Shown: positions 11,531-13,758 of the stretch, in pieces
How positions within the stretch are numbered: the first letter of the stretch is position 1
Layout: every line of letters starts with the position of its first letter
Source of the DNA: Leucosporidium creatinivorum
Lineage: Eukaryota; Basidiomycota; Microbotryomycetes; Leucosporidiales; Leucosporidiaceae
Direction of reading: 5' to 3'
Length of the DNA stretch: 64,000 nucleotides
Assembly: GCA_001600635.1 (NCBI GenBank)
Contig: BCKL01000012.1
Location: 434,001-498,000 of the forward strand
Made by a program: the position numbers and the translations under genes
Notes under the pieces: model-generated
What the model was told of the DNA's origin: nothing
Seen by the model: the letters and a program-made list of their open reading frames with translations, nothing else
Databases searched by the model: none

Positions 11531-13758
11531 ATGAGCACTATCGACGTAGTTTGCAAGCATGCAGGAAAAACATACCCCATCACGGTGGACCTCGATGCTC
11601 CCGGACTTGCCTTCAAGCAGCAGATCCACCAGCTCACCGGCGTCGAGCCAGCAAAGGTCAAGGTTGTCGTCAAGGGCGGTATGCTCAAGGTGCGAGCTAA
11701 GACAGGCTTGGCTGCTAGGCTGCAGCTAATCCTTGAACGCTCTACAGGACGATGCTGACATGAAGAAGCTGGGATTCAAAGCTGTGGGTCGCTCGCCAGT
11801 TTCGGGGCTCGTTGCGCTGTAGCTGAAACTTCTAAATCGTCTTTAGGGACAAACCATCATGGTGCGCTACTGCCTGCTCCACCAAGACCTACCAAACCAG
11901 AGCTCACCGTCATCCAACAGGTTATCGGCGCCGCTGGAGCCCTTCCGCCTCCGCCAGCGCCCATCGTCTTCATGGAGGACATGACTGATACCGAGCTCGC
12001 TCAGGCTGTATGTCTGGCGCGCTCCTGCTCGGCGCGACCCCCGCTAACGCTTTGCTTGCGGTACAGGTGGCGTATCCCGTCGGCCTCCAGAACCTCGGTT
12101 CGTTCGCTTCTACTTCCTCGAGGGAGCGCCGAACTAATCACTGTAACTTGACAGGCAACACGTGCTACATGAACTCGACCGTGCAGGTCTTGCGAGCCAT
12201 CCCCGAGCTGCAAGAGGCGCTCAACAGGTGCGTCCCATCTCCCCATGTCGGCCTACCTTCACAGGCTGACCCTGATCCCCTACAGCTTCAAGGGCAACCG
12301 ACCGACTGGCCAGAACGACGCCGGTCTTACCGCCTCCCTTCGCGACCTCTACACCAACATGGGCAAGACCTCGGAGGACTTCCCTCCCATCGTCTTCCTG
12401 CAGATGCTCCGCCAGTTCGCGCCTCAGTTCGCCGAGCGTAGCCCCAGCACTGGACAGTACGCGCAGCAGGACGCTCAAGAGGCGTGGGGCAGCATCGTGC
12501 AGGCCGTCAAGAACAACTTGAAGGCCGACCAGAGCAGCTTCGTCGAGCAGTACATGACGGGACAGTACGAGAAGACGTGAGTCGTGCTCTCCGTCGCCAA
12601 AAGTATTTCGAGCTGAATCTCTGTATCTCGCAGTGTGAAGAGCGAGGAGGCACCCGAGGAGGGAACTTCGACGAGCACCGAGGCTTTCCTCGACCTGAAG
12701 TGCAACATCACCGCGCAGACCAACTACATGATGGCCGGTATCACCGAGGTGCGTTGCTATTTCCTCTCTATACAACTTTCGCTGACCTCCGCTTAATTGC
12801 AGAGCCTCTCTGGCACGCTCAACAAGACGAGCGCCTCGCTCGGGCGTGAGGCCGCTTACCAGGAGACATCGCGTATCGCCCGTCTTCCTTCGCAAGTCCT
12901 TTACTCTTGTATCGCTCTCCGGGCTCTCGGCTGACTCGCTTGTCCCTCCACAGCTACCTCACCGTCAACCTCGTCCGCTTCTACTGGCGCCGCGACATCA
13001 ACAAGAAGACCAAGATTATGCGCAAGGTCAAGTTCCCCTTCGACCTCGACGTGCTCGACCTTCTCACCGATGACCTCAAGAAGCGGATCCAGCCCGTCAA
13101 CGAAAAGTTCAAGGACATCGACAAGGACCGTCGCGAGCGGGCCAAGATTCGTCGTCGCGCCAAGATTGTCAAGGAGGAGAAGGCCGCCGATGTGGGAACT
13201 GCTACTCCTGCTCCTCCGGTACAGGCGAATCCCGAGGACGACCCTCCCGAGGCGATGTTGGTGGACGAGCCGGCGGGACCGAAGGAGGGAGAGCTCGTTG
13301 ATGAGCCGTCGAAGAGGAAGGAGGAGGTCGAGCTGCTGCAGGGACTGCTGGATGCGGGATTGAAGAACGATGTCGGCGCCAATGTGACGGGACTGTACGA
13401 GTTGGCGGGTATCGTAACGCACAAGGGTGCTAGCGCCGATGGAGATGAGTCCTTTCTCGCCTCTCGTCGTGAGCTCTCGGCTGACCTTCGTCTCTTCTGT
13501 CCTCCTCCACGTCACTATGTCGGGTGGTGCGCAAGCAACGCCAATGGCGAGATCGAGGACCCCGACAAGCAGGAGTGGTTCAAGTTTGACGACGACAAGG
13601 TCTCGACCGTGCCGAGGGAGAAGATCTCATTGTTGGAGGGTGGTGGTACGTTTCGCTTCTCGCTGATACGCTCTTACTCGATCACTGACCCTCTTCACCA
13701 CGCAGGAGAGGACCACTGCGCCTACATCCTCCTCTACCGTAGCAAGAAGCTTGAGTAG
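11531..13758 (+). CDS. UBP6: Proteasome-associated deubiquitinase Ubp6/USP14
   Basis: This is a ubiquitin-specific cysteine protease that trims ubiquitin chains on the 26S proteasome. The N-terminal ubiquitin-like domain (MSTIDVVCKHAGKTYPITVD, then MKKLGFKAGQTIMVIGAAG) should bind Rpn1. The Cys box is GLQNLGNTCYMNS (nucleophile Cys). The His box is GGHYVGW, followed by WFKFDDDKVS and EDHCAYILLYRSKKLE at the end. The UBL domain includes a 15-nt exon (11847-11861, GQTIM). The His box is only correct if a 66-nt AT-AC intron (13445-13510) is removed. Without splicing, 22 extra residues would interrupt it, but no stop occurs. The last intron is 13646-13705. A charged insert (about 13180-13340) resembles the linker of the family. 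Its neighbour on the left is divergent, and the F-box-like gene is convergent. Confidence 0.95.
11847..11861 (+). other. 15-nt microexon of UBP6
   Basis: The bases ggacaaaccatcatg encode GQTIM, a conserved piece of the USP14 ubiquitin-like domain (LGxKAGQTIM). They are flanked by a TTTAG acceptor and a GTGCGC donor. Skipping it would delete five residues without changing the frame. Confidence 0.85.

Follow-up and report, generated by a model that had tools for sequence, protein, structure and literature searches.

A 66-nt segment at positions 13445-13510, just upstream of the presumed catalytic His codon in a UBP6/USP14 gene of Leucosporidium creatinivorum, is very probably a U2-type AT-AC spliceosomal intron (subtype II) removed by the major spliceosome. 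It is the single AT-AC intron of the window (the whole stretch of 64,000 nucleotides analysed, with a G+C content of 59%), vs 166 predicted canonical introns. Nor does it seem to be a one-off in this organism, as judged from four more AT-AC introns elsewhere in the genome whose removal restores conserved protein segments. The features discussed here are collected in the table.

According to the gene model, the eleven introns of UBP6 comprise nine with GT-AG ends, one with GC-AG and one with AT-AC ends, and their removal gives a product of 524 aa. This product contains the Pfam ubiquitin (N-terminal UBL) and UCH (C-terminal USP) domains, carries Cys and His boxes and finds its best PDB matches in USP14 and yeast Ubp6. 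Its domains and boxes place it in the USP14/Ubp6 type, for which proteasome binding and activation would be expected. Similarly, we take the Cys of NLGNTCYMN and the His of GGHYVGW to be the catalytic residues, on the basis of their roles in the USP family. While the UBL and USP domains and both boxes are common to the three proteins, the fungal product displays between the halves of its catalytic domain an acidic stretch that aligns to neither USP14 nor Ubp6, and its gene differs from theirs by the AT-AC intron at the His box. Our custom gene finder recovers the ten other UBP6 introns, with weights seeded with those same ten so that this recovery is not independent; the AT-AC intron was entered by hand in one run and chosen against a penalty in another.

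Table. Features of the UBP6/USP14 gene (positions in the window) and related loci elsewhere in the genome (contig:positions)
Feature	Location	Strand	Description and basis
UBP6/USP14 gene, start to stop codon	11531..13758	+	12 exons, 11 introns; predicted gene model
Cys codon of Cys box NLGNTCYMN	12163..12165	+	gene model and USP14/Ubp6 alignment
GC-AG intron	12892..12953	+	GCAAGT...CCACAG; ordinary U2-type variant; removal restores RLPSYLTVNLVRF, aligned to USP14/Ubp6
AT-AC intron of UBP6	13445..13510	+	66 nt, phase 1; ATGAGT...CTGACC...CTCCAC; protein restoration
5' splice site ATGAGT	13445..13450	+	the genome's frequent GTGAGT donor with G1 changed to A
Branch site CTGAC	13481..13485	+	branch A at 13484, 26 nt from intron end
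3' splice site CTCCAC	13505..13510	+	first AC past branch site; no AG in between
His codon of GGHYVGW	13513..13515	+	begins 3 nt past intron end; USP14/Ubp6 alignment
AT-AC intron, AMP-binding enzyme	C3:997227-997290		64 nt; removal joins LPPFYHIFG/WANVL
AT-AC intron, acyl-CoA synthetase	C5:866685-866752		68 nt; removal joins QGYG/MTESTA; in-frame stop inside
AT-AC intron, ABC transporter	C21:169491-169555		65 nt; removal joins SSKI/IILDEATASLD; in-frame stop inside
AT-AC intron, MFS transporter	C8:995996-996063		68 nt; removal joins LLSFM/DRGNIGNA
U2 snRNA genes (four)	C15:277154-277345, 280985-281176, 373592-373785, 397461-397654		snRNA search

The segment is confirmed as sequence, in its coordinates and in its frame: re-reading the DNA gave the positions, the length of 66 nt and the frames announced by the original prediction. 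That prediction held that excision yields the His box of USP14/Ubp6 and that read-through adds 22 residues just before HYVGW, and both claims are borne out. Excision of the segment gives THKGASADGGHYVGW, which aligns gaplessly with THQGRSSSSGHYVSW of USP14 and likewise with yeast Ubp6, the protein across the junction reading ...VTHKGASADGGHYVGW. When the 66 nt are retained, 22 more residues appear, R-H-Y replaces G-H-Y and the match to USP14 breaks at the His box. Scores fall from 329.0 bits in the spliced form to 307.3 in the read-through form against USP14, from 264.7 to 246.4 against Ubp6, and from 185.1 to 163.6 for Pfam UCH. Equally, as had been predicted, no ordinary pair of ends gives the frame of the His box: GHYVGW was restored by none of the 44 GT-AG or GC-AG pairs (donor positions 13383-13499, acceptor no later than 13544, length of at least 36). 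The junction cannot be slid, since the flanking bases differ, and of the 22 possible registers for cutting out 66 nt, 13445-13510 alone leaves a Gly in front of the His; it is also the only one with a known intron-end pair. From this restoration of the protein we infer that the RNA would be spliced at 13445/13510.

Apart from its ends, the segment looks like an ordinary intron of this genome. Among 746 predicted introns, GTGAGT is the donor in 32.8%, and CTGAC heads the predicted branch motifs with 379 cases. The length of 66 nt is near the median of 62 nt for predicted canonical introns. The distance of 26 nt from branch to end is long, yet it lies inside the range of the genome (median 19, 90th percentile 25 and 95th percentile 28 for the 538 predicted introns with a clear branch site). 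With signal weights learnt from the genome's own predicted ordinary introns and the end dinucleotides set aside, the UBP6 intron scores 14.5.

The pattern ATGAGT-N15-45-CTGAC-N10-40-CCAC was searched across the 27.7-Mb genome, with the reversed pattern as a control. Each gave 35 matches, i.e. there is no enrichment, and because the control is equally frequent most matches must be due to chance. Besides UBP6, however, four matches resemble AT-AC introns in conserved genes, so that the five loci lie on five contigs. Each of the four breaks up a stretch that looks conserved and that excision makes whole again; the ABC transporter junction could be placed one base further left or up to two further right. 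Without the end dinucleotides, the five introns score 14.0-16.2 vs a median of 10.8 and a 95th percentile of 14.5 for the 746 predicted canonical introns, values partly inflated by a search pattern that allowed no mismatch in ATGAGT or CTGAC.

In all five genes, the Pfam score is higher with the AT-AC intron removed than in the best model of the gene finder without it. Outside UBP6, the values are 187.3 vs 174.6 bits (AMP-binding, in the AMP-binding enzyme), 261.8 vs 183.5 (AMP-binding, in the acyl-CoA synthetase), 104.2 vs 65.5 (ABC_tran) and 91.3 vs 86.1 (MFS_1), although the ABC, AMP and MFS rival models also alter or add a neighbouring intron, and the difference does not come from the AT-AC intron alone. 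Short fragments with the intron out or in gave 66.9 and 55.7 bits as well as 87.4 and 67.2 for AMP-binding, and 29.7 and 16.0 for ABC_tran, while the MFS short fragments had no Pfam match in either form.

Codon gains were computed for 31 of the 35 pattern matches, each allowed as an intron at zero net cost (those on C32, C33, C34 and C43 were considered as matched strings only). The four accepted loci gain 11.5, 8.3, 6.8 and 5.6, and UBP6 1.3. A match at C1:273341 was rejected, with a gain of only 2.0, a location in repeated DNA and no conserved gene seen, as were 25 other matches with a gain of 0.0. The pattern matches C1:273282-273341 and C14:22536-22595 are near-identical with similar flanks, which suggests that both are part of a dispersed repeat. 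Codon usage alone is too weak to set AT-AC above other end pairs: over 284,746 nt and 42 classes of end dinucleotides, AT-AC had three introns with a gain of at least 6 and the other 41 classes had from 0 to 7. This test picked 12 AT-AC candidates, five of which were accepted; the other seven had gains of 1.3-8.0, by codon gain alone. One CT-AG candidate was set aside as apparently a GT-AG intron whose weak donor follows LSGGQK.

All five introns end in CTCCAC, the CCAC being fixed by the search pattern itself, and three of them use the first AC past the branch site. As for common descent, their ten pairwise comparisons gave scores of 14-19, four above the 95% mark of shuffled sequences (17) and none above the 99% mark (20), which does not establish it. 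GTGAGT and CTGAC occur together in 20.2% of the 746 predicted introns; if AT-AC introns have an equal make-up, five such introns imply about 25 with a like acceptor. As a rough estimate, the genome would thus hold perhaps a few dozen AT-AC introns, of which five are identified here.

The same set of predicted introns suggests that GC-AG introns are frequent: 69 of the 746 begin with GC and, among those with strong signals, 10 have GCRAGT vs 233 with GTRAGT. This predicted share is higher than the approximately 1% given in a table row that we take to be fungi (PMC7072748, excerpt). Contigs C47 and C48, about 53 kb each, were compared in two places, and in both they carry identical sequence in opposite orientation; they are probably one region assembled twice, and the duplicate stretches were excluded from the intron counts. 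A phenylalanine ammonia-lyase exon matches the PDB entries 1t6j and 1y2m, of Rhodosporidium toruloides, at 190 bits, vs 97 for the entries that follow; taken with the short, densely spaced introns and the G+C content of the window, this suggests a basidiomycete yeast with kinship to Rhodosporidium.

One variant is compatible with a U2-type AT-AC intron in UBP6: its retention could be regulated and give a catalytically dead Ubp6, still bound to the proteasome via the UBL. We regard it as improbable. The segment is a stop-free multiple of three directly before the catalytic His, and Ubp6 inhibits the proteasome non-catalytically (PMC8837689, excerpt). The original prediction had drawn attention to this length and to the absence of a stop; both are correct, but neither is special to this intron, as introns 12098-12154 and 13646-13705 of UBP6 are likewise stop-free multiples of three, whereas none of the four sister AT-AC introns has a length divisible by three. 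Moreover, stop-free introns of such lengths are not rare, at 9.2% of fungal GT-AG introns in an excerpted table (PMC7072748). The term 'intron retention' is absent from the open-access Ubp6/USP14 papers among the matches listed. Regulated retention giving inactive Ubp6 is in sum possible but unsupported. Equally improbable is a reading in which a small class of U2-type AT-AC introns is maintained with its own acceptor preference, the UBP6 intron serving as a switch whose slow or partial splicing during stress would yield a Ubp6 that binds the proteasome but is catalytically broken.

We consider it very unlikely that the 66 nt are instead exon, encoding 22 lineage-specific residues before the catalytic His. 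The length divisible by three, the absence of an in-frame stop, the UCH match of 163.6 bits kept by the read-through protein and the small codon gain from calling the segment an intron would all fit such an insert. On the other hand, it costs 22 bits against USP14 and 18 against Ubp6, breaks the match to USP14 in two at the His box and replaces the Gly before the His, and it would leave the donor, branch site and tail at intron strength within coding sequence. The four sister introns argue in the same direction: keeping any of them in the mRNA would shift the frame, and two, in the acyl-CoA synthetase and the ABC transporter, contain an in-frame stop, so that they cannot be put down to simple read-through.

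Given that the segment is best read as an intron, the question of which spliceosome removes it can be approached through its signals and through the snRNA genes. U12 introns have the donor consensus ATATCCTT. ATATCC is given as the U12 donor word in PMC3033335 (excerpt). The UBP6 intron matches 2 of the 8 donor positions and the five introns 2-3; for the U12 branch consensus TCCTTAAC the best match is 5/8 in UBP6 and 4-5/8 across the five. The earlier assignment to the U2 rather than the U12 type therefore stands, with ordinary donor and branch signals and poorly matched U12 words. No match to a minor snRNA was obtained among the candidates scored, namely 42 of 177 for U12, 46 of 1371 for U6atac, 48 of 359 for U4atac and 39 of 349 for U11, the control genomes being also without minor snRNAs; the same search found U2 in four copies and U6 in two. 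It is likely that minor snRNAs are absent from this genome. The U2 genes, all on C15, form two pairs whose members are opposite in orientation and equal in score. The ACAGAGA box is of the usual form in both U6 genes found; the AT-AC introns are thus not accompanied by a changed U6 box.

Removal by the minor spliceosome as a U12-type intron appears extremely unlikely from these results. In its favour, one part of the U12 introns typically has AT-AC ends, the minor snRNA candidates were scored in part and with no positive control genome, and there is the case of a basidiomycete, Cutaneotrichosporon oleaginosum. It is the single fungus for which minor snRNA genes are reported in PMC7072748 (excerpt). 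Against this reading stand the poor donor and branch matches, the four minor snRNAs with no match among the candidates scored, and one survey in which Ascomycota and Basidiomycota are without convincing minor introns (PMC10639083, excerpt). Finally, assembly or sequencing errors turning GT-AG into AT-AC would fit the ordinary remainder of the intron, but they would have to corrupt both ends alike at five loci on five contigs, which we consider extremely unlikely.

A U2-type AT-AC intron thus remains our preferred reading. As judged by protein restoration, the five introns would have the AT-AC ends of subtype II; their donor interior and branch site are like those of GT-AG introns of the genome, a likeness for which the search selected. 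In yeast, A-C can stand in for the G-G contact between the intron termini (PMC8283771, excerpt), and AT-AC is the most efficient end pair after GT-AG (PMC6726248, excerpt). Together with the ordinary signals and the missing minor snRNA matches, the A-C replacement makes the major spliceosome the likely agent; removal would then depend on U1/U2/U4/U5/U6 instead of U11/U12/U4atac/U6atac, for which the snRNA searches are indirect evidence. We infer that the major spliceosome would recognize the intron because its ordinary signals are strong: U1 and U6 would read GAGT at +3 to +6, U2 the CTGAC branch site, and the pyrimidine-rich tail would act as a further signal. An A1/C-1 pair in place of the G1/G-1 contact between intron ends would then allow exon ligation. 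As for origin, the simplest supposition is a GT-AG intron in which both terminal bases have changed.

Gene predictors that consider only GT-AG and GC-AG introns would miscall UBP6 and at least four other genes, placing wrong residues in or beside conserved motifs, which we take to be the USP His box, the ABC Walker B region and AMP-binding motifs. If the minor spliceosome is truly absent, the five introns would offer a natural test set for A1/C-1 acceptance outside artificial mutants.

U2-type AT-AC introns are a rare but known kind, with examples in C. elegans, in mutants of yeast and in further fungi; AT-AC introns make up 0.019% of annotated introns in a row taken to be fungi (PMC7072748, excerpt). 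Among the open-access literature matches listed, none dealt with AT-AC introns of red yeasts. In C. elegans, at least 42 AT-AC introns are suspected to be real, and the worm seems to be without U11, U12 and U4atac (PMC3033335, excerpt). The likeness lies in AT-AC ends in an organism apparently without minor snRNAs, while the present introns, predicted from DNA, belong to a fungus, measure 64-68 nt and carry a strong CTGAC branch site. Among fungi, the excerpts mention two 'other AT-AC' introns vs 561 GT-AG in the rust Phakopsora pachyrhizi, in a study reporting them in many species (PMC2846911), AT-AC ends in 69 of 14,305 RNA-seq junctions of Trichoderma longibrachiatum (PMC4324775), AT-AC among the non-canonical introns of Fusarium graminearum (PMC3577648) and one AT-AC protointron in S. 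cerevisiae (PMC6726248). These cases, too, are AT-AC ends in Ascomycota or Basidiomycota that the excerpts do not assign to U12. The L. creatinivorum introns differ from them in that each of the five interrupts a conserved protein motif that is restored on removal, a restoration not shown for the other fungal cases in the excerpts cited.
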